A DNA stretch of 64,000 nt, from contig JAIUPK010000001.1 in assembly GCA_020160915.1 (NCBI GenBank), positions 651,645 through 715,644 on the forward strand, given 5' to 3'. A model generated the notes under the pieces. It had not been told where the DNA came from. It did no database searches and was given only the letters and a program-made list of their open reading frames with translations. Shown here piece after piece: positions 5,183 to 61,136 of this stretch. Position numbers and translations under genes: made by a program. Source of the DNA: Actinomycetota bacterium (lineage in GTDB: Bacteria; Actinomycetota; Actinomycetes; Actinomycetales; Microbacteriaceae). The stretch's first letter is position 1, and each line of letters begins with the position of its first letter.

Positions 5183-5201
5183 ACGTGCACGCTATCCCAA
5201 G

Positions 5202-5213
5202 ATTGTTTCCAAT
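5202..5213. promoter_or_regulatory. Possible GntR operator ATTGTTTCCAAT
   Basis: A perfect ATTG-N4-CAAT inverted repeat lies between the E1 start and the divergent VOC-GntR genes. Position next to a GntR gene makes it a candidate operator, but a 12-bp dyad can occur by chance. Confidence 0.3.
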
Positions 5214-5296
5214 TCAATGCCAAAGTGCCGATAGAATTGCCGAAAGCCGCCCTGAGACGGTTGTATGTATCCAATCAAGCCGACGAAGGAGTCGAG

Positions 5297-6495: not shown

Positions 6496-6516
6496 CCCAG
6501 GAAGAGGAACCACCGC

Positions 6517-7893: not shown

Positions 7894-7895
7894 CG

Positions 7896-8768: not shown

Positions 8769-8775
8769 CGGGAGG

Positions 8776-10158: not shown

Positions 10159-10434
10159 GGAGTCCTCCCACAACGCCCCCATTGGCGTTCAGTAGTGTCG
10201 AAATAATGTTTAGCATAGGTTAACACTTTGGTCTAGTGAGCAATCGTCGGCCGTGGGGCCGAAGCCCTGTGCAGCCCCGAAAATAGCGGCCAATCTCGTG
10301 GAAATCTCGCTCGTGAGCGCCACAGTAGCGTGCAGTGACACTCCAGCAATAACCTCCGCTGTATAGCCCCGGTGTGCACCCTGACTTGATAGGGTGTGCT
10401 GAGAGAAGTTCTGCTGTATGTGAAGGAGCACCGC

Positions 10435-11148: not shown

Positions 11149-11181
11149 TCCGATAGTCACAGCAGCACGTCACTCACGAAG

Positions 11182-13677
11182 TCACTTCCGCGCCGCGCGT
11201 GAGCGCCGGAAGCGCACCACCATCGGCACGACAGCCGCGAAGATCACAAACGCACCCTGCAGCCAGTATTGCCACGAGAGCGACAGGCCGAGGAACGACA
11301 GCGAGTTGGTGATGGTCTGGAGCAGCAGACCGGCGACCGCCACCGCTATCGCCGAGCCGGAGCCGCCGAAGATGCTCGCGCCCGCGATGACGATGGCCGT
11401 CACCGACGTGAGTGTCAGCGCCTGACCGGTGTTGGCGTCACCGATACCGGTCTTGGAGTACAGCACGAACCCGGCGAGCGCGGCGAGCACTCCGGCGGCC
11501 ACGGTCGCGAACAGGCGCATCGACGGCACACTCACACCCATGCGGTTGGCCTTGATCGGGTCGGAGCCGGCGGCGCGTAGGCCGCGGCCGAGTCCCGTGC
11601 GCTTGATGATGATCGACATCGCGATCGACACGGCAATGGCCAGCAGCAGCACGACCGGAATTCCCGCGATCGTCGTGCCGATTCCCGTCATGATCTCCTT
11701 GGTCGCCGACCCACCGGGGTAGGGCCTGAGCACCTGGGCGGTACCGACAACGGCGATGGATGTCACGAGCGTCGCGATCACCGGCGGAATCGACAACTTG
11801 GTCACGAGCAGACCGTTGATGAGTCCCACGAACGCGCCAGCCAGCAGGGCGAGTAGCACCCCCAGCGCGAACATTCCACCGGAGCTGCCGAAGAACGAGA
11901 TGATCACGCCAGACAGGGCGACGACCGAGCCGATGCTCAGGTCGATTCCCCCGGTCATGACGACGAGCAGCTGTGCGAGGCCGACGAGGATGAGCGTTGC
12001 CGACGCCGCGAGCAGCTGGCTCACGTTGAGCGGGCTCATGAACGCACTGGACACCACTGTCGAGGCGATCGCCAGCACCACGGTCAGTCCGGCGAGCACG
12101 ACCGCCTGCGACTCACCCCAGAAGGTGAAGGCGCGCTTGCGCTTTGCGCCGACGGCGGAGACTGTCGAGGCGGAGTGGCCGGTGGACAGCACTGCCGTTC
12201 CGGTGATCGACCGCTCGGTGACGTCGTTGCCGTCGAGTACGGCCTGCACCTTGCCGCGGGAGAACACGAGAACCTGATCGCACAGGCCCTCGAGCTCGAC
12301 CGCATCCGTCGACAGCACGACGACCGCGACGCCGGTGTTGGCCATGGCGCGCAGGAAGGCGTAGATCTCGACGCGAGCACCGGCGTCGACGCCCTGAGTC
12401 GGGTCCTCGACGAGCAGCACCTTGGGGTCACCCAGGCGCGAGCGGGCGAGCAGCACCTTCTGCTGGCTACCACCGGAGAGGGAACTCACCGGGGTCTCGA
12501 GCGTGGGCGTCTTCACTGCGAGACCGGCGATGGCCTGCTGCGTGAGCGTGTACTCCCGAGTGCGGTTGGCCAAGCCACCCGGCATCACGGAGTTGAGCGA
12601 GGGCGCGACGACGTTCTCGCGAACGGACATCTTGCCGAACATGGCCTCGCCCATGCGGTCGCCAGGCAGGAAGGCGATTCCGGCGCGAGTGGCCGAGGCA
12701 TGCGAGCGGAGGCGCACCGAGGTTCCTCCGACGCTCACCTCACCCGAGACGAGACCCTTGCCCGCGAGGGCGCGCATGAAGTCGCGCTGGCCATTGCCCT
12801 CGACGCCGGCCAGGCCGATGATCTGGCCGGGGACGACAGACAGGGAGACATCGAAGAACTTGGCGCCGCTGGCATCCGAGACCTCGAGCACGTAGCCGGG
12901 CTTCTCGGCGGGGGCGACGAACTTGTCGGGGAACGTGGTCTCGAGCGAGCGACCGACGATGAGCTCGACGATCTGGTCGGCGGTGAAGTCGGCCACCTCA
13001 CCGGAGCCCACGACGTGGCCGTCGCGGAGCACCGTGAGCTCGTGGGCGATCTCCACGACCTCGGGGATGCGGTGGGTGATGTAGACGATCGCGACGTTCT
13101 TCTCGAGAAGTTCAGCGATGCGCTCGAACAGCCACCGGGTCTCCTCGGGCCCGAGCGCCTCGGTCGGCTCGTCGAGCACGAGAACCTGGGGGTCGGATGC
13201 CAGGGCGGCAGCAATCTCGATGAGGTGGGCCTCGCGCAGCGACAGAGATTCGACGGTTGCCGCCGGGTCGATCACGAGGCCGAGGGATGCGAAGTGTGCG
13301 GTCAGCCAGGCCGCCGCACCCGAGCGACGGGGTCGCTTCGAGTCCGGCAGGAGCAACAGCACGGCATCCAGAACAGTGAGGGAGGGCGCGAGGGCCGGGA
13401 TCTGGTAGACGATCGCCAGGCCGCGTTCGCGCGCCACCCGGGGCTGAACCCGGGTGAAAGTCTCGCCGGCGAGGCCGATCGTGCCTGAATCAGGCACGAC
13501 CGACCCCGCAGCGATCCCGACCAGCGTCGACTTGCCTGCGCCGTTCTCGCCGAGGATCGCGTGGACCCGACCGGGTGCGGCGCTGACGCTGACGTCACTG
13601 AGCGCGCGCACTCCGGGGTAGGTCTTGGTGATTCCGTTGAGAACGAGCACGGGCTCGTTGGTGGTCGAGTTATTCAT
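11182..13677 (-). CDS. Fused ABC ATPase-permease of a CUT2 (ribose-type) importer
   Basis: 832 residues, equal to a typical RbsA (about 500) plus RbsC (about 320). The first ATPase half has Walker A GENGAGKST and Walker B VLVLDEPTEA; its signature is degenerate (LSLREAHL). The second half has the usual altered Walker A (GVEGNGQRDF) and a good LSGGSQQKV signature. After a linker near residue 500-525 comes a permease with about eight to ten membrane segments, including VMTGGIDLSIGS. The ATG at 13677 lies two bases after the stop of the binding-protein gene and has no strong ribosome site, so translation may be coupled. It would pair with the separate permease at 14888. Substrate unknown; the amidohydrolase neighbours suggest a nitrogen compound. 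Confidence 0.9.
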   Translation of the reverse strand: MNNSTTNEPVLVLNGITKTYPGVRALSDVSVSAAPGRVHAILGENGAGKSTLVGIAAGSVVPDSGTIGLAGETFTRVQPRVARERGLAIVYQIPALAPSLTVLDAVLLLLPDSKRPRRSGAAAWLTAHFASLGLVIDPAATVESLSLREAHLIEIAAALASDPQVLVLDEPTEALGPEETRWLFERIAELLEKNVAIVYITHRIPEVVEIAHELTVLRDGHVVGSGEVADFTADQIVELIVGRSLETTFPDKFVAPAEKPGYVLEVSDASGAKFFDVSLSVVPGQIIGLAGVEGNGQRDFMRALAGKGLVSGEVSVGGTSVRLRSHASATRAGIAFLPGDRMGEAMFGKMSVRENVVAPSLNSVMPGGLANRTREYTLTQQAIAGLAVKTPTLETPVSSLSGGSQQKVLLARSRLGDPKVLLVEDPTQGVDAGARVEIYAFLRAMANTGVAVVVLSTDAVELEGLCDQVLVFSRGKVQAVLDGNDVTERSITGTAVLSTGHSASTVSAVGAKRKRAFTFWGESQAVVLAGLTVVLAIASTVVSSAFMSPLNVSQLLAASATLILVGLAQLLVVMTGGIDLSIGSVVALSGVIISFFGSSGGMFALGVLLALLAGAFVGLINGLLVTKLSIPPVIATLVTSIAVVGTAQVLRPYPGGSATKEIMTGIGTTIAGIPVVLLLAIAVSIAMSIIIKRTGLGRGLRAAGSDPIKANRMGVSVPSMRLFATVAAGVLAALAGFVLYSKTGIGDANTGQALTLTSVTAIVIAGASIFGGSGSAIAVAVAGLLLQTITNSLSFLGLSLSWQYWLQGAFVIFAAVVPMVVRFRRSRAARK

Positions 13678-46018: not shown

Positions 46019-47230
46019 ATGCGTTCTGTTGAGCTCTTCGCTGGCGCCGGCGGCCTTGCCCTGGGATCCGAGATCGCCGGATTCGAACCGGCCCTGACCG
46101 TCGAGTGGGACAGGTGGGCGTGCGACACAATTCGGGAGAACCAGAAAAGCGGATTCCCACTCGTACAGGGCTGGCGGGTTTACGAAGGTGACGTTCGCAC
46201 GGTGGACTGGTCCGGAGTGAACGATGTTGATCTTGTTACAGGTGGGCCGCCCTGTCAGCCCTTCTCAATGGGCGGTAAAGCGCTCGCGCAAACCGACCCT
46301 CGGGACATGTTCCCTGCCACAGCCGAGGTTGTGCGTACTCTCCAGCCCAGGGCGTTTCTCATCGAGAATGTCAAGGGTCTTACACGAGCGACCTTCGCAA
46401 ACTACTTCCAATACATCGTCCTGCGATTGGAGCATCCGGCGAATGTGATTCACGAAGGTGAGGCGTGGGACGCCCATCTTCGGCGACTTCAAGGGGAACA
46501 CACGGCGACGTTGACGGACCAGATTCGCTACAACGTCGTCGTAAGCACCGCCAACGCTGCGGACTTTGGGGTGCCTCAACAGCGCCATCGAGTCTTCTTC
46601 GTTGGGTTCAGAAGTGACGTCAACGCTGAGTATGAGTTCCCCTCTCCGACTCACACCCTTGACGCGCTGTTGCACGACCAGTGGGTTACCGGCACCTATT
46701 GGGATCGTCACGCGATCGGTGTCGCGCAGAGGCCGACGCTTAGCAGGTCCACTGCTGCACGAGTTGAGCGTCTTCGGGGCTCCGAGAGAGCCAGCCTGGG
46801 AGAGGCCTGGGTTACTGTTCGCGACGCGCTGGCTGGACTCCCCGAGCCCACAGGCGGGCGGTCTGAGCACCTTAACCACAAGCTTCAGCAAGGGGCTCGA
46901 TCATACGCGGGGCACACAGGTTCACCGCTCGACATGCCCTCCAAAGCCCTGAAGGCTGGAGCACACGGGGTCCCCGGGGGAGAGAACATGCTTCGGCGGT
47001 TGGATGGCACCGTTCGCTATTTCACCGTTCGCGAAGCTGCCAGGCTCCAGACGTTCCCCGACAACTACGAACTTCATGGCTCATGGAGTGAAGCAATGCG
47101 GCAGCTGGGCAACGCAGTGCCAGTTCGCTTAGCCGAAGTGGTTTCAAGATCAGTTCACACTCATCTGCTGCTTGCCTCGGCCACGGAGGGCTCAAGCGCG
47201 ATGGGAGTGTCCCGGGATCTGACTATCTAG
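46019..47230 (+). CDS. DNA cytosine-5 methyltransferase of a type II R-M system
   Basis: 403 residues with the m5C motifs in order: I FAGAGGLALGSE, IV GGPPCQPFS with catalytic C79, VI ENVKG near 116, VIII QRHRVFFVGF and X GNAVP. The target-recognition part lies about residues 195-330. Together with the convergent GIY-YIG gene it forms a restriction-modification pair; the last four bases of the two genes overlap. The base composition is lower in GC than the neighbouring core genes, a sign of transfer. Relatives of the nuclease cut CCGCGG, so that is the likely target. Confidence 0.92.
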   Translation: MRSVELFAGAGGLALGSEIAGFEPALTVEWDRWACDTIRENQKSGFPLVQGWRVYEGDVRTVDWSGVNDVDLVTGGPPCQPFSMGGKALAQTDPRDMFPATAEVVRTLQPRAFLIENVKGLTRATFANYFQYIVLRLEHPANVIHEGEAWDAHLRRLQGEHTATLTDQIRYNVVVSTANAADFGVPQQRHRVFFVGFRSDVNAEYEFPSPTHTLDALLHDQWVTGTYWDRHAIGVAQRPTLSRSTAARVERLRGSERASLGEAWVTVRDALAGLPEPTGGRSEHLNHKLQQGARSYAGHTGSPLDMPSKALKAGAHGVPGGENMLRRLDGTVRYFTVREAARLQTFPDNYELHGSWSEAMRQLGNAVPVRLAEVVSRSVHTHLLLASATEGSSAMGVSRDLTI

Positions 47231-48084
47231 TCGAACATCTCTTCTTCGTTCACGGACTCATCAAGGACAGGTCCCGAACTGTAGGTTGGCCGATGAGGCC
47301 TAAATTCGGTTGCGCCGTTCGAGCCAAGGGTCCATGAACCCGTGCGACTCGCGCATGTTATGGGATCCAGAGCGGCGTATGCGATCAAATAGCCGGGCAG
47401 TGCCACGACTACCCACGCTGCGGGCAGCAGGGGAACCAGCCAGTCAATCCAAGCTGCCACTGATCTTGTCTCGTGGCCCGAAAGCCGACCGCTGACATCG
47501 ATTGCCTCCAGCTTGCGGACTGTCGCCTTGTCACTTTGGAACCGGAAGTTGTACGGGAGCTTCTTCTTGAAGCTAACGAGGAAGTCCGCAAGGCTATGGA
47601 TCTCTCCGCCCACCATGGTGACGGACAAGTCAAGGTCGATCGGGAAGAGGCTGTCGAAGTGACCAGCTTCGACAACTGAGGTATCGCGGTTCTTGCCCGG
47701 ATCCTTGTTCCCGAAGCCGTTCGTGTTCCACGTAGCCTGACCCACCCGACGGAACTGCCCGATGAGCATCTTCTCTGGCGCGAGCGCGTCAAGGTCCTCC
47801 GCCACGTAGACGCACTTGAAGGTCGTACGCTCGAGTACACCGCCGACTCGTCCCGAGAGCTTCTTTCGATGCTGACCCAGCCTGCTTCGAAGGTTGCCGG
47901 TCGACTTGCCGACGTATACGAGATGACCATTCTCGAACAATTGATAGACGCCTCCACGAGTGGCAACCCGCAGCAGGTTGTCCTCCGAGAGCTCAACCGA
48001 TTCAAGCGACTCAAGGCTCGCCGCCAGCTGGTCACGTAGCGCGACGGTCACGCTCAGATTGAAGTCAGCTGCAAAGTTGGGCAC
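47227..48084 (-). CDS. GIY-YIG restriction endonuclease, Eco29kI-like
   Basis: 285 residues. The nuclease module is GGVYQLFENGHLVYVGKSTGNLRSRLGQH (split at residues 44-72) with Tyr47 and Tyr57, R68 and H72, the metal Glu E104 in LAPEKMLI, and the family-specific WNTNGFGNKDPGKNRD at 119-133. These features match Eco29kI-type enzymes. The C-terminal 130 residues (a VRKLEAIDVSGRL region, then WIDWLVPLLPAAWVVVALPG) exceed the length I recall for Eco29kI and include a hydrophobic stretch. It cuts DNA that the m5C enzyme has not methylated. Confidence 0.85.
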   Translation of the reverse strand: MPNFAADFNLSVTVALRDQLAASLESLESVELSEDNLLRVATRGGVYQLFENGHLVYVGKSTGNLRSRLGQHRKKLSGRVGGVLERTTFKCVYVAEDLDALAPEKMLIGQFRRVGQATWNTNGFGNKDPGKNRDTSVVEAGHFDSLFPIDLDLSVTMVGGEIHSLADFLVSFKKKLPYNFRFQSDKATVRKLEAIDVSGRLSGHETRSVAAWIDWLVPLLPAAWVVVALPGYLIAYAALDPITCASRTGSWTLGSNGATEFRPHRPTYSSGPVLDESVNEEEMFD

Positions 48085-48111
48085 GCGATGAAGGATAAAC
48101 CAATCGAAAGG

Positions 48112-49182
48112 CTATGCGCTGAATACCGCAGGATCAGCGAGGTAGTCCTTGAGGACCTGGAGTCGGAACTTGAGCGCTGACTGATCGTTGGGGCTCTGCG
48201 AAAGCCTGTCGAATTCCAGCAAGCGACGCTGCGCCGCGCTCAGTTCCTCTTCATCATTGTCGTAGCGCACTCTTCGCGCCTCCTCGAACGCCTGCAGGGA
48301 ATTGCGCGCTGGAGGCGCAGCTCCCGTTGCGGCGAGCTCAAGGTAGAGAAGGAAGTAGACGGAGACCATGCCAATGCTCGAAAGCAGGCGATCCTTTGAA
48401 GTGAAGGTCTGTTCGAGCATGGTGATTGCAGAGGCCGCGCGTTCTCGAAGGGCCTGCGCCAACGCGTCACCATCAGCAGCGGTGCGCAATTCATCCCAGA
48501 ACTCATCAAGGCGGCTCTTCTTTGTGTCAGACGGCCCTTCACTCTGTGACCAGGCAAGGAACTTCGTGGCGAGGTCCAGGTGGCGAAACCTTCGATTCGA
48601 GAAGGGCAATCGATCGACAAAGAAGGGAGATTCGATCAGCTCCCTGGTTGCTTGTCTCAGGGGCCCGCCTCGCCCATTTCGTTTCTCTGCAGCGTTGAGA
48701 GGTACAGCCTCGTTGAGACGGCTAAACATCTCTTCCACCAGTTCGAGGTCGTTAGTCCTAATGAGCATCACGTCGAGCGACGTAGCCGAGAAAAGCGCAG
48801 CAGTCTCCGGGAATTGCGTTTGGAGCTCAGAGTAGGTAAGCCCAGCCGGGCCGGTTGAACCGGTCTCGAGTTCGACGTAGTCGGCGGAAAGCGCAAATCT
48901 CCCATCCAAGAAGTCCCACAAGGCTTCGAGGCGCTGCCTGCCGTCTACGAGGGCGTAACGATACTCTCGGCCCGCTTCAAGCTCCCAGCCTGCAAGGTCA
49001 TGGAGATAGATCTTGGGTAGATCAAAGCCGTTCAGCAGGCTGTCAATAAGTAGCTGCTGTTTCGGCCTCGTCCAAACTTCGCCCTGTCGTTGATAGGGCG
49101 GAGCTACGTTTATCGAGTTTCTCAGGCCGTGAAGAAACGCCACCGAGGTGGTTCGCATTGGGCTCACATCGAAGTGACTCAT
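48112..49182 (-). CDS. DUF262-family (ParB-like) protein, likely defence nuclease/NTPase component
   Basis: 356 residues. The N-terminal DUF262 core is visible: PPYQRQGEVW at 28-37, QQLLIDSLLNGFDLPKIYL, and the DGRQR motif at 80-84. The helical rest has SRLNEAVPLNAAEKRNG. DUF262 is found in GmrSD-type modification-dependent nucleases and in other defence proteins, and its DGQQR-like motif binds nucleotide. Here it lacks the DUF1524 HNH domain that often follows. It overlaps the FRG gene upstream by four bases, so the two form an operon. Confidence 0.8.
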   Translation of the reverse strand: MSHFDVSPMRTTSVAFLHGLRNSINVAPPYQRQGEVWTRPKQQLLIDSLLNGFDLPKIYLHDLAGWELEAGREYRYALVDGRQRLEALWDFLDGRFALSADYVELETGSTGPAGLTYSELQTQFPETAALFSATSLDVMLIRTNDLELVEEMFSRLNEAVPLNAAEKRNGRGGPLRQATRELIESPFFVDRLPFSNRRFRHLDLATKFLAWSQSEGPSDTKKSRLDEFWDELRTAADGDALAQALRERAASAITMLEQTFTSKDRLLSSIGMVSVYFLLYLELAATGAAPPARNSLQAFEEARRVRYDNDEEELSAAQRRLLEFDRLSQSPNDQSALKFRLQVLKDYLADPAVFSA

Positions 49183-49961
49183 GAGTCGAAACCATTCCTA
49201 ATCGAGAGGGCGAGGTGGTCAAGGTCTGGATAAACGGTACTCGCGCTGATGTTCACGTCTGCGAGCTGTTCCTTGATCTCAGTCTTGTGCTGCGCAGGAA
49301 TAACGATCTTGCTTGTTGGCCCACCTGGGGAGTTCAGGGCTCTAGCGCTATGGTCCCCGGACGAGACCGTAAACGTGCCTGCCTGGGCAATAATGCGCCC
49401 GAATGTACGACCCGCGAGAACAGCTGCGGGCTGTAGCACGGGACCGCCACCAGCATCTGGAAGGTACGCGTCGAGATCATTGTCGTGTTCGAGCATCAAG
49501 GTGCCTCGCCCATTCCCAAGTGCCGACAGGTTTAGTTCGTCGGGGCTCAGCTCAAAGAGCGCTCCTGAGACTGGACCAGGCTGATCGGCCGCCAGATCAT
49601 CGACAGCAAAGAAGAGCCCCACGAGTGGGTTTTCACTCCAATCCAGTAGCCGCGTCGGAAGTCCATGATGTTGCGCCAAGCAAATCCACTCCCACTCGCT
49701 TGCAGGGCGATCCGTGAGACGACTTGCTGCGTCTTGTTTGAACTGGCGGAGCATCACAAGCTCGTTCTCCAGATAACGTCGATTGCGCGCAACTCTTGGC
49801 TCAAGCGGCCAGATTTCATTTGCTTGACCGCGATACCAGAGTCTCTGACCTGCGGCCCTCGTCGCTCTCAGCCTGGACATCATGTCCTCGAGGCTCGTGA
49901 CGACTACCGGCTCGGCAGCCTCAGGCTCGTCGACTGGTTCGTTCGGCACATCGCCAATCAT
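49179..49961 (-). CDS. FRG-domain protein
   Basis: 260 residues from ATG 49961, twelve bases after TGAGGAA; an in-frame start at 50039 is possible. The FRG hallmarks are WYRGQ at 42-46, WPLEPRVAR, WICLAQHHGLPTRLLDW and NPLVGLFFA. FRG domains occur alone and in phage-defence proteins; their biochemical activity is not settled to my knowledge. It is translationally coupled to the DUF262 gene and next to an R-M system. Confidence 0.8.
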   Translation of the reverse strand: MIGDVPNEPVDEPEAAEPVVVTSLEDMMSRLRATRAAGQRLWYRGQANEIWPLEPRVARNRRYLENELVMLRQFKQDAASRLTDRPASEWEWICLAQHHGLPTRLLDWSENPLVGLFFAVDDLAADQPGPVSGALFELSPDELNLSALGNGRGTLMLEHDNDLDAYLPDAGGGPVLQPAAVLAGRTFGRIIAQAGTFTVSSGDHSARALNSPGGPTSKIVIPAQHKTEIKEQLADVNISASTVYPDLDHLALSIRNGFDS

Positions 49962-50166
49962 GGCCCAAATATTCCTCAAGTGGATGCGGCCGGGTTGCTC
50001 ACTTACCCAACGGGCCGGGGCGGTCAGGCCGCGCGACAAGGCCGCGCGACGCCATGATCACTATCTAGCTCGCAGCTACTTCGACTGGTGGCGTCGCGGA
50101 GCCAACCAGGCACCGACCCCCGAACTCGGGCTACTGGCATCCGCCCCCTAGGGCCAGGCTGGAAAC

Positions 50167-52218: not shown

Positions 52219-54150
52219 CTACGGCTGCATGTGGTCGCGCCAGTTGCCGCTCTCGATCACCGGATGCTTCTTGGCCATCGCCTCGTCGTAGAGCACGCCC
52301 GGCACTATGCGACCGTCAGCGAGCTCGACGGGGCCGCGGTACAGGCCAGGGGGTTCGCCTTCGATGACACGAAGCAACACGTCGATCGGCAGCGTGTACA
52401 GCTCGCCGGAGACGGCCACGCCATCCTTCTCCACCTCGTACATGCCGGGGTGAACGCCACCGATGTCGTGCATCCGGTACTTCGGAGCCGTCTTCATCTC
52501 GGCGATGAACTCGGCACCCTGCAGGTTGCCGTGCAGTCCGAGGCCACGCATGAGGGTTCCGTTGACGAAGAGCAGGTCATCCTGAAGCACGACCTCCTTG
52601 TCCTTGCGCGCCGCCCAACCGAAGCCGAGCAGCAGGATCATGAGGAAGGCGTACCCGAGCGAGACACCCGGTGAGGCGTTGATCCCGACCTGCGCAGCGT
52701 TGATCAGGCCGAAGAATGACAGCACCATACAGATGCCCGACGTCACCGCCGCCGCGTACATCCGTCGGTCGATCACGAACACGGCAATCGAGCCCAGCAA
52801 CACGCCCGCCAACACCGCGCCCGACCCGAACAGCGCGAGCCCCTGGTAGATCACGCCATTGCCCGCGAGCTTGTCGAGGCCCACCTCCGCGGCATTGGTG
52901 CCAGCCGCACCGAGCGAGTTGTCGATCAGGCCGGATGCCCACTGCGCCAAGCTCGGCAACATCGCAAGGATGATCGCCGGGGCGTAGCGCAGCGCGCTCA
53001 CGTTGGTCGCCTGTGCGCCGATCACCAGACCGATGAACAGCAGGATCGGCACCAGCGCCTGCATCGGGAATATCGCGAGGAACAGACCGACCAGACCGCT
53101 GAAGCAGACCAGCGCAACGACGATTCCGGTGACCAGCGAGTAGCCGATGCGACCACCGACCTTCTTCCAGCCGGGGTGGCCGATGTAGACGGCCGGCGGG
53201 AACGGCGAGCCGAGGAACGACCCGATGATCGCGCCCAGGCCATCGGCGGTCAGAACCGCGCGAGCCGAGTACCGGTCACCGGCGGCCGCCGCCGATTCGA
53301 CGTTGGTCATGGCCTCGGTGAAGTTGTAGATACCGAGCGGGATGGCCGTCGCCAGCAGCGGGGCGATGTCCTGAAGGCCCGCGAGAACCTCACCACCGGG
53401 AATCGGGAAGTAGATGCCGATCGACGCGATCGACTCAGCGACCGCGCTCGGCTTGAGGATGTCCGACCACCCGAGCAGCACGGCGATCCACGCGATCACG
53501 GTGCCCGCAACCACGGCGACGAGGCCGACGGGAGCGTTGAACGGCATCTTCCGGAACCCGAGCCAGCCGACGAGGATGAAGCCGAAGGTCACGAATGCGA
53601 TCCACGGCGCCTCCCACATCTGAGCGGCCGGGCTCATCGAGATGAACGTGATGGAGATACCCGCGAGGGCACCGAGCATTGCCGCGCGCGGCGTCCACTT
53701 GCGAATCCAAGGACCGAAGATCGCACCCAGCAGAATGATGAACCCGACAATGAACGCCCACGCAAGTCCCGCGTGCCACGCCTTCAGCGGGTCACCCGAC
53801 TGCAGGAACACCGGCAGCATGACGACGAGCACGACGATGAACATGTGCGGCACGCTCGGCCCGTAGGGCAGAGCCGCGACATCCGTTCGGTTCTCCCGTC
53901 TGGCGAGGCGTCTGGCAAGAATCGCGTACCAGATGTTGCCCAACGGCAGCGCAATACCCAGCGCCGGGAGGATGCGACCGAAGACGACGTTGTCTGGCAT
54001 CTGGATGACCGCCAGGCAGAGCCCGGACAGCACGATCACGTTGAGCAGGACGTTGGTGCCGAGCCCGAACAGCCCGTTCCAGTCGCCCTTGACCCACCAC
54101 TTGATCTGCACCGGTGCAGAAGTGGTGGTCGCGGTGGAGTTGCTACTCAT
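52219..54150 (-). CDS. NCS2-type nucleobase/ureide permease fused to an allophanate-hydrolase C-terminal-like domain
   Basis: 643 residues. Residues 1 to about 520 form a 12-14 span transporter of the NCS2 type (GTNVLLNVIVLSGL; YNFTEAMTNVESAAAAGDRYSA; GSPFPPAVYIGHPGWKKVGG). From about 525 to the end the chain is soluble: FVNGTLMRGLGLHGNLQGA, then MKTAPKYRMHDIGG, LYTLPIDVLLRVI and VELADGRIVPGVLYDE, a pattern that matches the C-terminal domain of allophanate hydrolase. That domain has been reported to decarboxylate N-carboxycarbamate. The fusion, and the amidase and carbamate kinase in the operon, suggest a ureido or biuret-type substrate. Last gene of the six-gene operon. Confidence 0.85.
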   Translation of the reverse strand: MSSNSTATTTSAPVQIKWWVKGDWNGLFGLGTNVLLNVIVLSGLCLAVIQMPDNVVFGRILPALGIALPLGNIWYAILARRLARRENRTDVAALPYGPSVPHMFIVVLVVMLPVFLQSGDPLKAWHAGLAWAFIVGFIILLGAIFGPWIRKWTPRAAMLGALAGISITFISMSPAAQMWEAPWIAFVTFGFILVGWLGFRKMPFNAPVGLVAVVAGTVIAWIAVLLGWSDILKPSAVAESIASIGIYFPIPGGEVLAGLQDIAPLLATAIPLGIYNFTEAMTNVESAAAAGDRYSARAVLTADGLGAIIGSFLGSPFPPAVYIGHPGWKKVGGRIGYSLVTGIVVALVCFSGLVGLFLAIFPMQALVPILLFIGLVIGAQATNVSALRYAPAIILAMLPSLAQWASGLIDNSLGAAGTNAAEVGLDKLAGNGVIYQGLALFGSGAVLAGVLLGSIAVFVIDRRMYAAAVTSGICMVLSFFGLINAAQVGINASPGVSLGYAFLMILLLGFGWAARKDKEVVLQDDLLFVNGTLMRGLGLHGNLQGAEFIAEMKTAPKYRMHDIGGVHPGMYEVEKDGVAVSGELYTLPIDVLLRVIEGEPPGLYRGPVELADGRIVPGVLYDEAMAKKHPVIESGNWRDHMQP

Positions 54151-54857
54151 TTCTTTGCTCCAATCTCGGTGGTTGCCGAATCGACTGCGTCTAGGAGACT
54201 CGTCGACGTGCCGACCCAGCCGACGATTCCGCCCTGGGCCTTGAACATGTTGAGCGCCGACTCGTAGAACTCAGCGAAGTACGAGCCGGTGCAGTCGGAC
54301 AGGATGAGGCACTCGAAACCGCGGTCGTTCGCCTCGCGGGCTGTCGACTGAACGCACACCTCAGTGGTGACCCCCGTGATGATGAGCTGCTCGATCCCCT
54401 TGGCGCGCAGGATCGTCTCGAGGTCGGTGGCGTAGAACGCCCCCTTGCCGGGCTTGTCGAGCACCACTTCGCCCTCGATGGGTGCGAGCTCCGGAATGAT
54501 CTCGTGCCCGGCCGAGCCGCGAGTCAGCAATCGACCCATCGGGCCGTCGTCGCCGATGCGAAGCGTCGGGTTGCCACGATCCCGCTTGGCCGGGAACAGG
54601 TCGGCGAGATCCTCGCGATGGCCCTCCCTGGTGTGGATGACCATCCACCCCTTCTCACGGAACATGTCGAGCACTGCGCGGGTCGGCTTGATCGAGCCGC
54701 GCAGTGTGGAGACGTCGTTGCCGAGTGACTCCCCGAAGCCACCCGTCTCCATGAAGTCGCGCTGGAAGTCGATACACAGCAGCGCCACCTTCTTCGGGTC
54801 GAACGTGAACCCGTACGGTTCTGCCGGCACCGTGACGGTGCCAGTCGTCTCATTCAT
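54147..54857 (-). CDS. Isochorismatase-like cysteine hydrolase, biuret-hydrolase-like
   Basis: 236 residues with the cysteine-hydrolase catalytic set: D34 in CIDFQRDF, K135 in LDKPGKGAF, C168 in TTEVCVQST. In addition Q208 in FKAQGG matches a substrate glutamine of biuret hydrolase. Long identical or near-identical segments to what I recall of biuret hydrolase include IHTREGHREDLADL, LLTRG, IIPELAPIEGE and EANDRGFECL. It would hydrolyse one amide of biuret or a like compound to release ammonia. Related ureidoacrylate or N-carbamoylsarcosine amidases are alternatives. ATGA overlap with the permease gene behind it. Confidence 0.82.
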   Translation of the reverse strand: MNETTGTVTVPAEPYGFTFDPKKVALLCIDFQRDFMETGGFGESLGNDVSTLRGSIKPTRAVLDMFREKGWMVIHTREGHREDLADLFPAKRDRGNPTLRIGDDGPMGRLLTRGSAGHEIIPELAPIEGEVVLDKPGKGAFYATDLETILRAKGIEQLIITGVTTEVCVQSTAREANDRGFECLILSDCTGSYFAEFYESALNMFKAQGGIVGWVGTSTSLLDAVDSATTEIGAKK

Positions 54858-54872
54858 GCGTGACCTCTCTAC

Positions 54873-55844
54873 TCAGCCGTTCTTCGTGACGATAGTTCCC
54901 GCGGTGCCGGCGAGAGCATCCGGAAGCTTGGAGATCGAGGTGATGATGGCGCGCGTTCCGCCCGCCTCGATGAAGTCGATCGCTGACGCCACCTTCGGGC
55001 CCATCGACCCCGGGGGAAACTGCCCGGCAGCGAGGTGCTCGCGGAGCTCATCGACGCCCACAGTGCGCAGCGCACGCTGCCCGGGAGCGTTGAAGTCGAC
55101 ATAGACCTCGTCGACCCCGGTGACGAGAACTAGAGTGCCGACGCCGATCTGCCCGGCCAGCAGTGCAGATGCCCGATCCTTGTCGATGACCGCATCGACC
55201 GGATGCCACCCCGCCGAGTCGCGCACCACCGGAATGCCTCCCCCGCCGGCCGCGATCACGACAGCGCCGCTGTCGACCAGGGTGCGGATCTGGCTCGCCT
55301 CGATGATCGTCTTCGGAATCGGGCTCGCCACAACGCGGCGGTAGGTGTTCTCCCCCATCTCGGTCACCACCCACCCCTCCTCAGCGACGCGCAGCCGCGC
55401 CACCTCGGCGGTGAGCTGCCCACCGATCGGCTTGGTCGGCTTCTCGAAGGCCGGATCGTCGGCGTCCACCTCGGCGTGAGTCAGAACCGCAACCGCCCGG
55501 ATGCCGCTGTGCCGCGCATCGAGGGCGGAGTCGATCGCGACGGCGAGCATGTGACCGATGCCACCCTGCGAGTCGGCGACCGCGAGCCACAACGGAAGGG
55601 CGGGCAGGCCCTCGACCATGGCATCCGGTGCCACGAGCTCGCCGCGGCGCAGAATGTAGCCCACCTGCGGGCCATTGCCGTGGGTGACGACGGCGGTCCA
55701 GCCGTCGACCACCAGGGCGGCGACCGACTCCGCGAAGGTGGCGGCGCGCTCGAGCTGACGGTCGACAGAGCCGGGCTCGCCGTCGAGCACCAGGGCGTTA
55801 CCGCCGATGGCGATCAGTACGGTGTCGTCGTTCGTGGCCGTCAT
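54873..55844 (-). CDS. Carbamate kinase
   Basis: 323 residues of the amino-acid-kinase fold: IAIGGNALV start, VVTHGNGPQVGY, GGGGIPV and VIDKDRASALLA. It makes ATP and carbamate from carbamoyl phosphate and ADP; carbamate then breaks down to ammonia and CO2. The equivalent gene in the E. coli allantoin cluster is ybcF (allK). It overlaps the DUF1116 gene by four bases and lies 15 bases before the amidase gene. Confidence 0.93.
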   Translation of the reverse strand: MTATNDDTVLIAIGGNALVLDGEPGSVDRQLERAATFAESVAALVVDGWTAVVTHGNGPQVGYILRRGELVAPDAMVEGLPALPLWLAVADSQGGIGHMLAVAIDSALDARHSGIRAVAVLTHAEVDADDPAFEKPTKPIGGQLTAEVARLRVAEEGWVVTEMGENTYRRVVASPIPKTIIEASQIRTLVDSGAVVIAAGGGGIPVVRDSAGWHPVDAVIDKDRASALLAGQIGVGTLVLVTGVDEVYVDFNAPGQRALRTVGVDELREHLAAGQFPPGSMGPKVASAIDFIEAGGTRAIITSISKLPDALAGTAGTIVTKNG

Positions 55845-57238
55845 GTGTGTGCTCTCTGCTCGGCGAGGAATCGGGCTGCCTTGAGGAAGACCTCGCTCGG
55901 CGCGGTCACGATGCCCGCGCCGATCTGGCCGACGCCCGCCTCCTTGTGCGCGATGCCCGTGTTGATGAGCGGCAGCACGCCGGTGTCGAGAACCTTGAGC
56001 ACGTCGATACCCGACGGGGTGCCAGCGAAGTTCAGCGGCGGCAGAGGGTACGCCGGGTGCGGACCGAGCGTGATGCGGCGCATCGAGCGGGTCGCGGCGA
56101 GCGCATCGTTCGGGGTGCCCCCGACGAACTGGGTGATCGCGGGGGATGCCGCCATCGCGAATCCGCCGAGGCCGAGAGTCTCGGTGATGGCCGAGTCCCC
56201 GAGGTCAGGGTTGGCGTCTTCGGGTCCGAAGCCGGGGAAGAACAGTCCATCCGCGGGGCCGACGGGGGTGGTGAACCACTCGGTTCCGCTCCCGGCGACC
56301 CGAAGGCCGAACTCCACCCCATTGCGCGCCATCGCGGTGACGAGAGTGGAGTTCTCGACGCCGATCGCGGCATCCAGAGCCAGCTTGGCGGCGGCCATGG
56401 AGATGTTGAGAGCGAAGTGATCGTTGCCCGCCAGGAAGGCGAGCACCGCGACGCTGTCGGAATTGGGTTCCAGCTCGGCGATCGTCGGCGCGAGTCGGCG
56501 GGCCAGGAGCGAGGTCGCTGCGACGTTGCGGTTGTGACCCTCGTCGCCCATCGACAGTGCCTGACCGATGAGCGAGGTGACGTCGATCGGGCCGTACTTC
56601 TCGAGCGTGCGGTCGAGCACCGGGCCGAGCACATCGCGCATCCAGGTGAGCCGAGTGATGACTTCGGAGTCGTACGCACCGAACCGCAGCACCTTGCCGA
56701 GGCCCTCGTTGAGGCTCGCAAACGCCTGCCTGCCGTCGTCGAGGTCGGTCGCCACCAGCACCGGCATGGATGGCGCGATGACTCCCGCCATCGGGCCAAC
56801 AGCCCCGTGGTGGTGACAGGGTGCGACTGCGATCTCGCCGGAGTCGAGCATCCTGATCGCCTCGTCGGCGTTGTCGGCCCAGCCTTCGAACAGTGTCGCG
56901 CCGATGAGCGCGCCTCGCATCGGGCCGCACATGCGCTCAACCTCGATGGGCGGACCGGCGTGCAGCAACGTGCGGCCCTCGGCGATGCCGGGCATCACCT
57001 CGCGGGCGGGTCGGATGCGCGTGAGCTGCGGCTTCACGGCGTGCACCTTCGCGATGGCGACGGCGTTCGCGGCATCCGTCACCTCGGTGTCGAGGGTCAG
57101 CGCGAGGCGAGCCACGTCGGCGTCGCCGAATGCCGGCGGACGCCAGTCGAGCTGCGTCACCTGCGCCGCGGGAACGCCCTCTACGATCAACGGGAGGCCA
57201 GCGTTGATCACGCTGAGTTCGTCGGTAAGGATGCTCAT
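55841..57238 (-). CDS. DUF1116 protein, AllG (YlbE)-type carbamoyltransferase subunit
   Basis: 465 residues of the DUF1116 family (VAPCHHHGAVGPMAGV; MGDEGHNRNVAATSLLARRL; FFPGFGPEDANPDLGDSAITETLGLGGFAMAASPA). In E. coli the homologue YlbE is a part of the oxamate carbamoyltransferase with FdrA and YlbF. The cluster of all three subunits and the kinase in one operon makes the same reaction type likely here. ATGA overlaps join it to both neighbours. Confidence 0.88.
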   Translation of the reverse strand: MSILTDELSVINAGLPLIVEGVPAAQVTQLDWRPPAFGDADVARLALTLDTEVTDAANAVAIAKVHAVKPQLTRIRPAREVMPGIAEGRTLLHAGPPIEVERMCGPMRGALIGATLFEGWADNADEAIRMLDSGEIAVAPCHHHGAVGPMAGVIAPSMPVLVATDLDDGRQAFASLNEGLGKVLRFGAYDSEVITRLTWMRDVLGPVLDRTLEKYGPIDVTSLIGQALSMGDEGHNRNVAATSLLARRLAPTIAELEPNSDSVAVLAFLAGNDHFALNISMAAAKLALDAAIGVENSTLVTAMARNGVEFGLRVAGSGTEWFTTPVGPADGLFFPGFGPEDANPDLGDSAITETLGLGGFAMAASPAITQFVGGTPNDALAATRSMRRITLGPHPAYPLPPLNFAGTPSGIDVLKVLDTGVLPLINTGIAHKEAGVGQIGAGIVTAPSEVFLKAARFLAEQRAHT

Positions 57239-58692
57239 GCAACACCTCCCGCGGCCAGTCGGGCCGCCGCCGCATTGGTCTCGGCGAGCACGACGCCCGC
57301 ACTGGTCAGGATGCCGCGCTGCCGCGCCAGCCCCTGCGGATCACCCGCCGTACCGCACACCGAGCCAACAACCAGCAGCGTTCTGCCGTCCGCCGCGGCC
57401 GCGGCTTTCGCCTGAGCCACCGCCGTCGCCACGGGTGTTGCGGGGTCGGTGTTCGCCCCGTAGCCGAGAACGAGGTCGAGCAGGATCGTGCCGACGGTGG
57501 CATCCGAGCCCGCCGCCGCGATCCTCTCGGCCCGCGACTCGGGGTCGATCATCGGATGCGGCTTGCCCGCCGTGTACTCGTCGTCGCCGAGGTCGATGAT
57601 CTCGGCGACGACTCCGGCGCGCTTGAGGATGATCTTCGACTCCGACGCGAGCGTGCCACCCGTGTAGAGGCCGAGCACGCGACCGGGCGGCGCATGCACC
57701 GGCTCGGGCTCCGTGACCGTGAACGGGTGCCCAGCGAGCCCGGCCGCGGCGAGCGCGCCCCCCTCGAGAGTGCCGCGCACCAGGACGCCGTCGGTGTCAG
57801 AGTCGTCTTGGCCGAGGAAGCAGGCGACGACCGGGGTTCCCTTGGCGGCGATGCCGGAGAGCCGGGCCAGCAGCGCGTCGGCGACCTCGGGTGCCGGGGG
57901 CTTCGAGACCATCATGATGACCGTCGTGTCGGGGTCGTCGATCAGGAAGTCGAGAGCGAGGTTCGCCATCAGGCCGCCCACCTCGGCCGACAGGTCGCGA
58001 CCGCCGACACCGATCAGCTGCGACACTCCGGCGCCCGCGCCGTCGAGCAGCCCCGACACCTCCTGTGCGCCGGTTCCCGAGGCGGCGACGATGCCGACCG
58101 ACCCTCGCGCCACCGCGTTCGCGAAACCGAGCGGCACGCCGTCGAGGATCGCGGTGCCGCAGTCCGGGCCCATCATGAGCAGTCGCTTCTCAACTGCGAG
58201 TGTCTTGAGCCGCACCTCGTCGGCCACGGCCACGTTGTCGGAGAAGCAGAGAACGTGCATTCCCCCGCGCAGCGCCTGCTCGGCAACGACGGGCGCGTAG
58301 GTTCCGGCGATCGAGATTGCGACCAGGTTGGCGGGATGCTCCGCCAGGGCTGCGACGCTGACGCCCTCGTCGATCGTCCCCGGTCGTTGCTCCTCGGTTG
58401 CCGACCCGGCGTCCACAGCCGTCAGCCCCGCCTCGGCTGCGTCGAGTGCCGCCGTCACGATCTCGGAGTCGGTGCCGCGCACCACGAAGACAAGATCGTC
58501 GGGGGCTGCGGTGAGTCCGTCGGGAAGCATGCCCGAGTCGGCCAGGATGCCGAGGTTCGCGGGAGTAGCCATGACAGCACCGACCCGCACGACCCCGTCG
58601 CGCTTCTCCGTCGTCGATGCGATCGCCATCAGGGCGACCGAGTCGCGGTAGAAGTGCGGGAGCACTCGGGAGGAGAGAACCGTGTCGCTCAT
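57235..58692 (-). CDS. FdrA (AllF)-type acyl-CoA-synthetase-like carbamoyltransferase subunit
   Basis: 485 residues from ATG 58692. The fold is like succinyl-CoA synthetase alpha/beta: a GPDCGTAIL motif with C178, VGIVAASGTGAQEVSGLLD, GVGGRDLSAEVGG and a late GLYTGGTLASES. FdrA is the largest subunit of the oxamate carbamoyltransferase. ATGA overlaps bind it to the DUF2877 and DUF1116 genes. The SAG-type glycine loops would bind phosphate of carbamoyl phosphate (inference). Confidence 0.88.
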   Translation of the reverse strand: MSDTVLSSRVLPHFYRDSVALMAIASTTEKRDGVVRVGAVMATPANLGILADSGMLPDGLTAAPDDLVFVVRGTDSEIVTAALDAAEAGLTAVDAGSATEEQRPGTIDEGVSVAALAEHPANLVAISIAGTYAPVVAEQALRGGMHVLCFSDNVAVADEVRLKTLAVEKRLLMMGPDCGTAILDGVPLGFANAVARGSVGIVAASGTGAQEVSGLLDGAGAGVSQLIGVGGRDLSAEVGGLMANLALDFLIDDPDTTVIMMVSKPPAPEVADALLARLSGIAAKGTPVVACFLGQDDSDTDGVLVRGTLEGGALAAAGLAGHPFTVTEPEPVHAPPGRVLGLYTGGTLASESKIILKRAGVVAEIIDLGDDEYTAGKPHPMIDPESRAERIAAAGSDATVGTILLDLVLGYGANTDPATPVATAVAQAKAAAAADGRTLLVVGSVCGTAGDPQGLARQRGILTSAGVVLAETNAAAARLAAGGVA

Positions 58693-59540
58693 GCGGCACC
58701 CTTCGTTCGATGCGCGAGCTCCGCTCGCAGTGTGGCGGCCAAGCCGGTGAGAAGGTCGACGCCGGATGTCGCGCCCCACCGGCTCGCACACGCGAGGATC
58801 GTGCGGGCGGGCATCCCGTCGACCATGCCGTCGACGAGCTGGTAGACGTGCTCCGCGAAGCGACCGGATGCCGCGGCCACGATGTAGTGGCGCGAGGCCG
58901 CCGTCGTCGCGGCGAGCAGTGGGGTCACCGCTGCGGACAGTCGGCTCGCCGCATCCGCCAGGCCGAGTGCAGCGAGGGCGGCAAGCGTGCCGACCACCAT
59001 GTCGTCACCGGACGGGGTGGTGCCGGGGCCAGCACCGATGAGCTCCGGCAGCAGCACGCGCGGGTCGCCGTGGAGGGCAGCCTCAGCGAGTGCCGGGGCG
59101 AGTGACCGCACCCGGGCGAGGCCGCCGTCGAAGGATGCCGCGGGGGCAGCGTTGCCCCGTGCGAGCTCGGCGCTGACCGCATGCACCGCGCGGGCATCGA
59201 GGTGTCGGGGGGTGAAGTGCAGATCGACCGGCACGAGAGTTGCGACCCGCGACCAGGCGGAGAGGTCCACGGGATGCCCGGGCGCGACGGCCGAGAGGTC
59301 GCGACGGACACGGGCGAACTCGGCCCCATTCGGAAGGCACACACCTCCGGGGGTGACGCCGCCGCTCGCGTTGGCAATCGTCAGCAGGCGCTGGGTCGTG
59401 GTCGATCGGAGTACGACGGCCGATTGTCCGAGATGGACGATCAGCTGGTATCCAGCTGAGAACCCGTCGGCGTCGCTGACACCGAGCGTCGCATCGATGC
59501 GAGCGAGATCGGGTTCCGCAATCATTGCCGCCATCGCCAT
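58689..59540 (-). CDS. DUF2877 protein, AllH (YlbF)-type carbamoyltransferase subunit
   Basis: About 283 residues from ATG 59540 (starts at 59534, 59525 or a TTG at 59561 are possible; no clear ribosome site). The DUF2877 hallmark is LIGAGPGTTPSGDDMVVGTLAAL, followed by HYIVAAASGRFAEHVYQLVDGM. In E. coli YlbF belongs with FdrA and YlbE. It heads the operon and lies back to back with the PucR gene, across a repeat-rich control region. Confidence 0.83.
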   Translation of the reverse strand: MAMAAMIAEPDLARIDATLGVSDADGFSAGYQLIVHLGQSAVVLRSTTTQRLLTIANASGGVTPGGVCLPNGAEFARVRRDLSAVAPGHPVDLSAWSRVATLVPVDLHFTPRHLDARAVHAVSAELARGNAAPAASFDGGLARVRSLAPALAEAALHGDPRVLLPELIGAGPGTTPSGDDMVVGTLAALAALGLADAASRLSAAVTPLLAATTAASRHYIVAAASGRFAEHVYQLVDGMVDGMPARTILACASRWGATSGVDLLTGLAATLRAELAHRTKGAA

Positions 59541-59592
59541 ACTTGGGAATAGTAGGGTCAACGATCACGGTATGGCTCGGTCCGGAAAGGAC

Positions 59593-59625
59593 GACAATCC
59601 GGGCGGCGATTGTCCAGAAGGGACA
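59593..59625. promoter_or_regulatory. Overlapping inverted repeats, candidate PucR operator
   Basis: GACAATC (59593-59599) and GATTGTC (59608-59614) form one dyad; TGTCC (59611-59615) and GGACA (59621-59625) form a second that shares the middle arm. The half site is TTGTCC/GGACAA. It lies between the divergent PucR gene and the carbamoyl operon and reaches to the PucR ribosome site. Confidence 0.5.
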
Positions 59626-59636
59626 AAGGAGTTGAT

Positions 59637-61136
59637 GTGAGCACGATCACAGTGCGTGAGGTTCTCACTCTGCCCGTGCTCCGCGGCACGTTCGTCGTCG
59701 CCGGGCAACGCGGTCTGAGCCGCGCCGTCACCGGGGTGAACGTGATGGAGGTTCCCGACATCGAGTCGTTCGTCAAGGGGGGCGAGCTCCTCCTCACGAC
59801 GGCGTACCCGCTGCGAGAGCATCCCGAAGATCTGAGCACCCTCGTGCGCACACTCTCTCGCCTCGGTCTGGCCGGTCTTGCGGTCAAGACCGGCCGGTAC
59901 CTGGAGAAGCTTCCCGACGAAGCCTTGGCGGTGGCGAACGAGCTCGACTTTCCGGTGATGCTGGTCGCCGAGCACACCTCGTTCAACGAGGTCATCGGCG
60001 CCGTGCTCGCCGTCGTGCTGACCGAGTATGGGGCCGAGCCGGCGGGCGCGGAAGCGATCCGGGAGCGTCTCACCGGTGTGGCGCTCGCCGGCGGTGGGCT
60101 CGTCGAGATCGCCCGAACCCTGGCCGGGGCACTGGGACGGCACGTCGGCATCCTCGATCCCGACGGTGCATTGCTCGGCGAGGGGGGCGGCGGCGAACGC
60201 TCCGGCAACGACGAGACACACGAGTCATGGTCGTTCCCGATCACCGTGGGTGGCACCGAACGGGGGCGCATCGTCGTGCGCGGCGACGACGAACCGACGC
60301 TGGGCCAGCGGCGACTCATCCGGCAAGCCTGCTTCGCAGCCGGGATGCACATCGCGCAGGCCGTGGCGAGCCTCGAACTCGACCGCCAGATGCGGGTGCT
60401 CTTCCTCGAGGAGCTGCTCGCGGGCAAGACCATCGACGAATCCCTTGCTCGCGAGCGGTCACGTCTGTTCGGCTGGGACTTCGGCTCCGATCACGTCGTC
60501 GTGCTCGCCCGGCTGAGTCACGAGCTTGCGGATGCCACGGTCGCCCGCGCCGCCGAGACCGGGTTCATCAGGGGAGCGGTCGCGTGGGCGCGCGGGCAGG
60601 AGGCGGTCGCGATCGTGCCGGCGGCGAGCATCCCGGGGGACGGGACGCCGTGGGTCGAGGCGGCGCATTGGGGTGAGACGCTCGCGCGGCTCGGCGGCGG
60701 GAAGGTCACGGTCGCCACGGGAAGCGTCGCGGAGTCACCGTCGCGGCTCGCGGAATCCCACAGCGCCGCCCGGTCAACGCTCGCTATCGCCCAGGCGACC
60801 GGACGCGCGAACGCCCGCCACGACCTGCTCGCGCTCGAGCGAGTGATTCTCTCGGTGCCCGACGACCTGCTCGCCGAGCTCGTCGCTGCCGAGCTCGGCC
60901 CGCTGATCGCGGTCGACGCCGCTACCGGCTCGGAGCTGTGCGAGACGCTCGAGATGTTTCTCGGCACGGGCAACGCCGCGGATGCCGCTCGCCGACTGTT
61001 CATCCACTACAACACGATGAAGCACCGGATGTCGCGCATCTCCGACCTCATCGGTGTCGACCTGCACGACCCGCGTGCCCGCCTCAAGCTCGCCTTCGCG
61101 CTGCAGGTGCGCAAGTTGGTGGCGCTTCCGGAGTGA
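59637..61136 (+). CDS. PucR-family transcriptional regulator
   Basis: 499 residues from GTG 59637, after AAAGGAG. The N-terminal PucR domain (VREVLTLPVLRGTFVVAGQRG, NVMEVPDIESFVKGGELLLTTAYPL) senses a purine or ureide-type ligand. A GGDEF-like region follows, and the C-terminal helix-turn-helix is ARRLFIHYNTMKHRMSRISDLIGVDL. PucR-type proteins regulate purine, allantoin and other nitrogen catabolism. Divergent from the operon it most likely controls. Confidence 0.92.
   Translation: MSTITVREVLTLPVLRGTFVVAGQRGLSRAVTGVNVMEVPDIESFVKGGELLLTTAYPLREHPEDLSTLVRTLSRLGLAGLAVKTGRYLEKLPDEALAVANELDFPVMLVAEHTSFNEVIGAVLAVVLTEYGAEPAGAEAIRERLTGVALAGGGLVEIARTLAGALGRHVGILDPDGALLGEGGGGERSGNDETHESWSFPITVGGTERGRIVVRGDDEPTLGQRRLIRQACFAAGMHIAQAVASLELDRQMRVLFLEELLAGKTIDESLARERSRLFGWDFGSDHVVVLARLSHELADATVARAAETGFIRGAVAWARGQEAVAIVPAASIPGDGTPWVEAAHWGETLARLGGGKVTVATGSVAESPSRLAESHSAARSTLAIAQATGRANARHDLLALERVILSVPDDLLAELVAAELGPLIAVDAATGSELCETLEMFLGTGNAADAARRLFIHYNTMKHRMSRISDLIGVDLHDPRARLKLAFALQVRKLVALPE

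Follow-up and report, generated by a model that had tools for sequence, protein, structure and literature searches.

An actinobacterial operon that may ferment triuret by way of AllFGH and carbamate kinase

The operon and its encoded proteins

The window analyzed here is a stretch of 64,000 nucleotides from an Actinomycetota bacterium of the family Microbacteriaceae (assembly GCA_020160915.1, contig JAIUPK010000001.1, positions 651,645 to 715,644), in which six minus-strand genes at 52219-59561 form an operon in the order AllH, AllF, AllG, carbamate kinase, amidase and permease. The six genes and their 4-bp overlaps, described in a first-pass annotation of the same DNA, are borne out, as four of the five junctions overlap by 4 bp and the 15-bp gap between kinase and amidase is the sole junction that does not. 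Two features were absent from that annotation: an allophanate hydrolase C-terminal-like domain (AHC) fused to the permease, and a divergent PucR-type regulator. The features, in window positions, are listed below.

58689..59561, minus strand: AllH (DUF2877) subunit of a predicted carbamoyl phosphorolase (PF11392, 5.7e-21, 75.7 bits against a cut-off of 25); the start codon is uncertain, 59561 being used and 59540 possible
57235..58692, minus strand: AllF-like subunit (FdrA; NF004760, 3.7e-126, 421.8 bits, just below the cut-off of 433); the ATG at 58692 was chosen as start, the longest frame beginning at 58791
55841..57238, minus strand: AllG-like subunit (DUF1116; PF06545, 9.6e-91, 303.5 bits against a cut-off of 27)
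54873..55844, minus strand: carbamate kinase (NF009007, 9e-93; TIGR00746, 6.2e-94)
54147..54857, minus strand: isochorismatase-like amidase of the TrtA type (PF00857, 2e-44; best match in the Protein Data Bank (PDB), 6XIX)
52219..54150, minus strand: permease with a fused C-terminal AHC domain, one 643-residue reading frame
52591..54150, minus strand: transmembrane part of the permease, with a modeled UraA/UapA/SLC26-like fold (AlphaFold2 and Foldseek)
52228..52572, minus strand: AHC domain (PF21986, 1.6e-25; PDB 5C5Z, 3.1e-18)
59610..61136, plus strand: divergent PucR-family regulator (PF07905, 2.5e-35; HTH_30, 1.7e-18)

All three AllFGH subunit families stand together in the operon, FdrA with a score slightly under its threshold. 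AllF matches PDB entry 3DMY (4.2e-73) and is 41.8% identical to E. coli AllF over 457 residues, AllG matches 3CLQ (1.3e-118), and a PDB search at E 1 gave no relative of AllH. The kinase passes NF009007 (310.6 bits against 266) and misses TIGR00746 (314.5 against 358.25). In E. coli, AllFGH is the oxamic transcarbamylase, which converts oxalurate and phosphate to carbamoyl phosphate and oxamate and to which the genes were assigned only in 2024 (PMC11326118). The earlier prediction that AllFGH performs carbamoyl phosphorolysis and feeds carbamate kinase, with ATP as the yield, is supported and kept here. The PucR-family gene likely regulates the operon, judging from its position.

For the transmembrane part of the permease, Pfam gave no transporter match, finding in the protein only the AHC domain and its parent fold. 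The AlphaFold2 model has a mean pLDDT of 77.5, and Foldseek matched it to SLC26/sulfate transporter, UraA and UapA structures (best E 1.2e-6) at TM-scores of ~0.4-0.55 by query length. AHC occupies permease residues 527-641.

The amidase, its gene set and other AllFGH contexts

The amidase had been annotated as biuret hydrolase-like (BiuH), with biuret as a possible substrate. TrtA, a relative of BiuH, is active on triuret and has almost no activity on biuret; F35, N41, E160 and I205 distinguish it from BiuH, which has Y, Y, D and V at these sites, and one Rhodococcus BiuH uses biuret and triuret alike (PMC7948467). In the window amidase all four TrtA-type residues are present (F35, N41, E160 and I205, TrtA numbering), and the catalytic triad D24, K129 and C162 is kept together with the triuret contacts E72, K132 and Q202. 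The protein misses the cut-off of the BiuH model NF050097 (272.6 against 370 bits), and its best PDB match is TrtA at 266 bits, with the Rhodococcus BiuH at 241. In a midpoint-rooted tree that excludes amidases shorter than 190 residues, the five-row group of the window has characterized TrtA plus three related amidases as its sister group (nine-row set, 96/91), and BiuH forms a separate clade (100/100). Residues and tree together lead us to reject the BiuH reading, although overall identity alone is indecisive, and they argue against biuret as the substrate. Among 37 full-length amidases (window and CFT073 counted, five partial-amidase rows set aside), 33 have F N E I and two have one site changed; the remaining two are BiuH-type and are second amidases in Nitrospira loci. 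As the amidase is of the TrtA type, carboxybiuret is the most likely substrate of AllFGH and allophanate its product.

We then compared neighborhoods of AllG, taking the best 80 of 562 relatives, so that the counts describe loci near the window's AllG; several of these loci are short or come from metagenome assemblies, and a context gene was scored by its match to one reference protein (E 1e-15) no more than 10 kb to either side. An amidase of the TrtA/BiuH family occurs in 37 of the 80 neighborhoods, and in 31 of these it lies within 300 bp of an AllFGHK gene, on the same strand in all but one (30/31). AHC accompanies 30/37 amidase loci against 4/43 others, and carbamate kinase 34/37 against 11/43. 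Amidase, AllFGH and AHC occur together in rows from Actinomycetota, Chloroflexota, Pseudomonadota, Nitrospirota and Myxococcota (the Chloroflexota row is a metagenome assembly, as are part of the Pseudomonadota, Nitrospirota and Myxococcota rows), and because the gene set recurs in such distant relatives, it is not a chance assembly. In-frame fusions join its members in several ways: AHC to permease in the window and L010-L013, AHC to kinase in L044, L052, L070 and L073, AHC to amidase in L066, and kinase to amidase in L011.

The same functions are encoded as seven genes in E. coli CFT073 (C_RS22500-22530), whose amidase has F N E I. This region is matched in 1547 of 5426 complete E. coli genomes, including Nissle 1917, and is at least 80% covered in 1542. 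A 2026 paper on avian E. coli noted likeness to RutB, FdrA and carbamate kinase and named pyrimidines and oxalurate (PMC12928451), and c4763 is cited elsewhere as a urea-breakdown protein.

Loci without the amidase have other neighbors. A xanthine dehydrogenase (XDH)-like large subunit is found in 20/43 of them versus 1/37 amidase loci, and a PF04199 cyclase (15/43), a xanthine/uracil-family permease (13/43) and a ring-opening amidohydrolase (10/43) are each found in 0/37 amidase loci. Four of the ten ring-opening enzymes were compared with PDB structures; those of L077 and L065 are barbiturases (648 versus 345 and 500 versus 310 bits) and also match the published barbiturase signature (PMC3758960), and that of L069 is ambiguous (390 versus 295 bits). 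In L077, L078, L081 and L087, AllFGH stands beside an XDH-like enzyme, a xanthine/uracil-type permease and an AtzD/barbiturase-family enzyme. In loci of the L077 type, AllFGH could possibly act on ureidomalonate, as a phosphorolytic arm of oxidative pyrimidine breakdown. Other AllFGH clusters are paired with allantoin genes (oxalurate). In E. coli K-12, yahD-yahJ (L009, 3281-10508) comprises another AllFGH-like set, accompanied by an amidohydrolase and a carbamate kinase of its own.

AllG residues were compared between 37 triuret and 24 pyrimidine loci, with 16 rows held out beforehand. The separating columns, in window numbering, are 186 (F versus Y/M), 308 (V versus T), 324 (A/T versus G), 346 (L versus I) and 399 (L versus I/V), and the window has F186, V308, T324 and L346, as in triuret-linked AllG. 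The held-out rows mostly agree with their gene context. Among them, L014 and the cyanurate-linked L049 are triuret-type (F V A L L), L019, L028 and L047 have F V A/T L L, and L033 has Y T G I I. The held-out L018 (F V A L I) is TrtA-linked, yet lies among pyrimidine rows on a long branch; L065 and its neighbor L056, also held out, are pyrimidine-type (M V G I L) despite sitting in the triuret clade. AllG rows without known context read F V A L L (L020), Y V A L L (L035) and Y V T L L (L037); E. coli AllG has F N A M I, and YahG is mostly pyrimidine-type (M V G I I). This residue test supports, without proving, a part for AllG in substrate choice. AllF was dropped as bearer of substrate-tracking residues.

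A second route into the same chemistry is suggested by L049 of Huaxiibacter chinensis, a cyanurate-type AllFGHK locus (1325-11422) on a 12-kb contig that contains no TrtA-type amidase and whose AllG falls within the main triuret clade. Its ring-opening enzyme is a cyanuric acid hydrolase, matching the Moorella enzyme at 582 bits and 72% identity against 329 bits for barbiturase, with the class residues T, R, G and G at 321, 325, 345 and 346 as read from the alignment. TrtA and cyanuric acid hydrolase differ in fold and yield the same product, carboxybiuret. The cassette (permease, cyanuric acid hydrolase, NCS2 permease, AllH, AllF, AllG, carbamate kinase) is flanked by IS26 copies, with a LysR gene nearby, in two plasmid records (L095, 8716-17645, and L097, 8716-18795); a third record holds only its first part before the record ends. 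It is matched in 49 of 72,556 plasmid records, at least 80% covered in 47, and in L095/L097 it holds no AHC and no BiuH. A search of the same records for the amidase matched 291, including 133 from Rhizobium and 78 from Escherichia. The five amidase-bearing plasmids inspected comprise two of hydrolytic type (the comparison loci L098 and L100), two with amidase-CodB clusters and one with an AllFGHK cluster. On a Klebsiella plasmid, BiuH and TrtA are accompanied by atzF, formamidase, an ABC transporter and a GntR regulator; on a Rhizobium plasmid they stand with a cupin protein. Both plasmids encode a YYDV amidase and an FNEI amidase, and neither shows AllFGHK in the stretch inspected. TrtA would accordingly occur in two settings, one hydrolytic and one, as we propose, phosphorolytic.

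Proposed pathway and its rivals

We give somewhat better than even credence to the reading that the operon serves uptake and fermentation of triuret (or of an oligo-urea very similar to it) through the TrtA-type amidase, AllFGH, carbamate kinase and AHC. From the observed gene content, residue signatures, trees, conservation and fusions, we infer each reaction of the operon proteins as follows. The permease would import triuret, and the amidase would hydrolyze one end of it to N-carboxybiuret and ammonia. From carboxybiuret and phosphate, AllFGH would form carbamoyl phosphate and allophanate, by analogy with the oxalurate reaction of the E. coli complex, and carbamate kinase would turn carbamoyl phosphate into ATP, ammonia and CO2. 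The permease-fused AHC would dispose of the allophanate (the simplest way being decarboxylation, giving urea and CO2), and this removal would pull phosphorolysis forward. More broadly, it is about an even call that AllFGH is a carbamoyl phosphorolase family for substrates of the form H2N-CO-NH-CO-X-COO-, namely oxalurate (no X), ureidomalonate (X is CH2) and carboxybiuret (X is NH), the last being the product of TrtA acting on triuret or of cyanuric acid hydrolase acting on cyanuric acid.

The first-pass annotation had placed allophanate in the pathway, and this part of its chemistry finds support. In L019 and L047 an AtzF above the TIGR02713 cut-off adjoins AllF, AllG and the kinase, as does one spread across two frames in L028; in L025 and L040 AtzF adjoins TrtA. 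These positions suggest that AllFGH produces allophanate. In the Nitrospira locus L031, AHC alone stands at the place of AtzF in L025. A genome-wide search of the window's genome found no AtzF over the TIGR02713 cut-off and no urease over its own; the route first annotated likewise did without AtzF. The gene set recurs in several phyla, and AtzF exceeds the cut-off in 8 of 35 genomes searched. Urease does so in 18 of the 35, and 15, including the window's, have neither over cut-off (several of the 35 are metagenome assemblies, and CFT073 is not among them). With 17/35 lacking a urease over cut-off, the idea that urea is a required, used end product is weakened, though urea may be excreted. AllFGH may possibly also phosphorolyze allophanate, as first suggested.

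Removal of allophanate by AHC is the weakest step of the scheme, and we assign decarboxylation of allophanate to this domain with low confidence. The parent domain of AHC decarboxylates N-carboxycarbamate. The one PDB match of AHC, 5C5Z, which we take to be protein c4763 of uropathogenic E. coli from a cited structure paper, is identical over 119 aligned residues to CFT073 C_RS22505. Against the AtzF model TIGR02713 the operon AHC scores 42.5 bits (cut-off 511) and corresponds to the C-terminal part only. Residues N530, T532, L533, H567 and E599 (permease numbering) are present in 31/31 operon-type AHC and 0/5 AtzF domains, and Y558 and E583 in all 36; the consistently different residues rule out AHC as a mere AtzF remnant. 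A literature search, thin on subscription papers and preprints, found no paper treating N-carboxycarbamate together with allophanate and none linking barbiturase with carbamate kinase.

The nearest competitor reverses the order of steps: AHC, or time, would turn carboxybiuret into biuret, which AllFGH would split with phosphate to carbamoyl phosphate and urea, giving the same net products. AHC is a domain tied to decarboxylation, and a window genome with no AtzF over cut-off fits this order as well. Carboxybiuret decays to biuret with a half-life of ~20 min (PMC7948467). The substrates oxalurate and, by prediction, ureidomalonate carry a free carboxylate, however, and biuret does not; the cyanurate cassette and the cyanurate-type host genome G333 have no AHC; and L025 and L040 have, next to TrtA, the allophanate-consuming AtzF in the position that AHC takes in other loci. 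We consider this order unlikely. A lower probability still falls to the route first annotated, in which the amidase makes allophanate from biuret and phosphorolysis of allophanate by AllFGH yields carbamoyl phosphate and carbamate. The amidase does belong to the BiuH/TrtA family, in which one Rhodococcus enzyme acts on biuret and triuret (PMC7948467), and a genome with no AtzF over cut-off suits this route too; against it stand the TrtA-type residues, the tree position and the missed BiuH cut-off, and the pairing of the same AllFGHK with cyanuric acid hydrolase in a cassette without BiuH (one such plasmid has BiuH in another cluster). Of that interpretation, phosphorolysis is supported and biuret is probably not the substrate.

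Very improbable, in our estimate, is a branch of allantoin breakdown in which AllFGH splits oxalurate and the amidase hydrolyzes oxamate. E. coli AllFGH is indeed assigned to oxalurate (PMC11326118), and the regulator belongs to the PucR family, named for purine catabolism. The operon contains no allantoin genes, and the window genome (G000) has no allantoinase over cut-off (248.8 against 357.85 bits); allantoinase exceeds the cut-off in only 6/28 genomes (27 with the operon set and one of cyanurate type). This absence and the neighborhoods, where the XDH-like subunit is rare beside the amidase, weaken the oxalurate reading, and the amidase retains the residues that contact triuret.

Several observations weigh against the triuret pathway we favor. 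By overall identity the amidase is nearly as close to BiuH (54.0%) as to TrtA (55.8%), so that the case for TrtA rests on residues and tree. The operon amidases of L015 (F N E I) and L018 (F N H I) fall on the BiuH side of the tree, L018 as sister to it at 100/99, and the L073 amidase (6951-7679) does not have the triuret contacts E72 and Q202, which points to another substrate or decay. On the AllG tree the triuret context is not one clade, with 11 changes of which at least nine are forced by starred branches, so that a single origin is unsupported, and the window's five-row AllG clade lies outside the main triuret clade. The AllG rows L032 (F V G L L) and L088 (Y V A I I) are mixed, and no AllF column passed the context filter. 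AHC is missing from 7/37 amidase loci; genome-wide it is absent from all five of these genomes that were searched, the other two loci (L067 and L085) being short contigs, and a genome-wide search of G333 found none either, so that AHC is dispensable. One pyrimidine-type genome, G337, has a solitary AHC-like frame. The Klebsiella plasmid with the cyanurate cassette also bears TrtA, BiuH and AtzF in another cluster, and the published kinetics of AllFGH were from carbamoyl phosphate and oxamate (PMC11326118).

Host genome and comparison with known systems

The window's genome is 2.93 Mb long and 99.75% complete. Of the 80 best AllG matches out of 562, the closest with a species name is that of Terrimesophilobacter mesophilus (83%). 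Distribution of the operon within the family is patchy: AllG is present in 6 of 299 sampled genomes, the window's own counted, and absent from five other listed genomes of the genus. Elsewhere in the window, 46019-50039 holds a possible defence cluster with a DNA cytosine methyltransferase, NsnA/PD-T4-2_A-like and PDC-S15-like proteins, and an open reading frame (47227-48084) for which no match was found. Another small-molecule breakdown cluster of ~20 kb lies at 8776-31781, with sugar-type ABC transporters, three PRK08204-type amidohydrolases, two of them over the PRK08204 cut-off, and two weak DddP matches, one of which is an M24 peptidase by Pfam.

Triuret is a urea-like waste and fertilizer by-product, and cyanuric acid is a residue of pool disinfectants. 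If the proposal is true, urea oligomers and cyanuric acid would be an energy source beyond a nitrogen source, as splitting triuret with phosphate would yield ATP in place of wasting the bond energy. It would also give a substrate and purpose to the operon found in the 1547 E. coli genomes (which include CFT073 and the probiotic strain Nissle 1917), and would widen the AllFGH transcarbamylase from one substrate to at least three, with the carboxybiuret branch carried by more than one in four complete E. coli genomes and, in the form of the cyanurate cassette, by plasmids.

With E. coli allFGHK (PMC11326118) the window operon shares three subunits, a kinase and a predicted phosphorolytic logic, AllF, AllG and AllK being 42-50% identical and AllH 42% over 97 residues; unlike that system, it has no adjoining allantoin genes and adds a TrtA-type amidase and AHC. 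The amidase has the same catalytic and specificity residues as the enzyme of the TrtA-BiuH-AtzF pathway (PMC7948467), which is hydrolytic, whereas the operon has AllFGH and a kinase in place of BiuH and AtzF, so that energy would be conserved. Similarly, the hydrolytic cyanuric acid route through AtzD, AtzEG, AtzH and AtzF has carboxybiuret and allophanate as intermediates (PMC6219798), and the L095/L097 cassette would share these but pairs cyanuric acid hydrolase with AllFGHK. The CFT073 operon around c4763 (GR29, PMC12928451) has a TrtA-type hydrolase, AllH, AllF, AllG, kinase, AHC and permease as the window does, but with AHC as a separate gene and, as in E. coli-type operons, a CodB-like permease instead. 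In comammox Nitrospira, allFGHK lies beside trtA, biuH and atzF, so that its co-location with triuret genes is as in the window (PMC12625717). Within the literature searched, triuret and carbamate kinase come together in that paper alone, as do cyanuric acid and carbamate kinase, and the search on DUF2877 led to it and to one paper from 2012. The comammox study reads two pathways, for oxalurate and for triuret, where we propose one.

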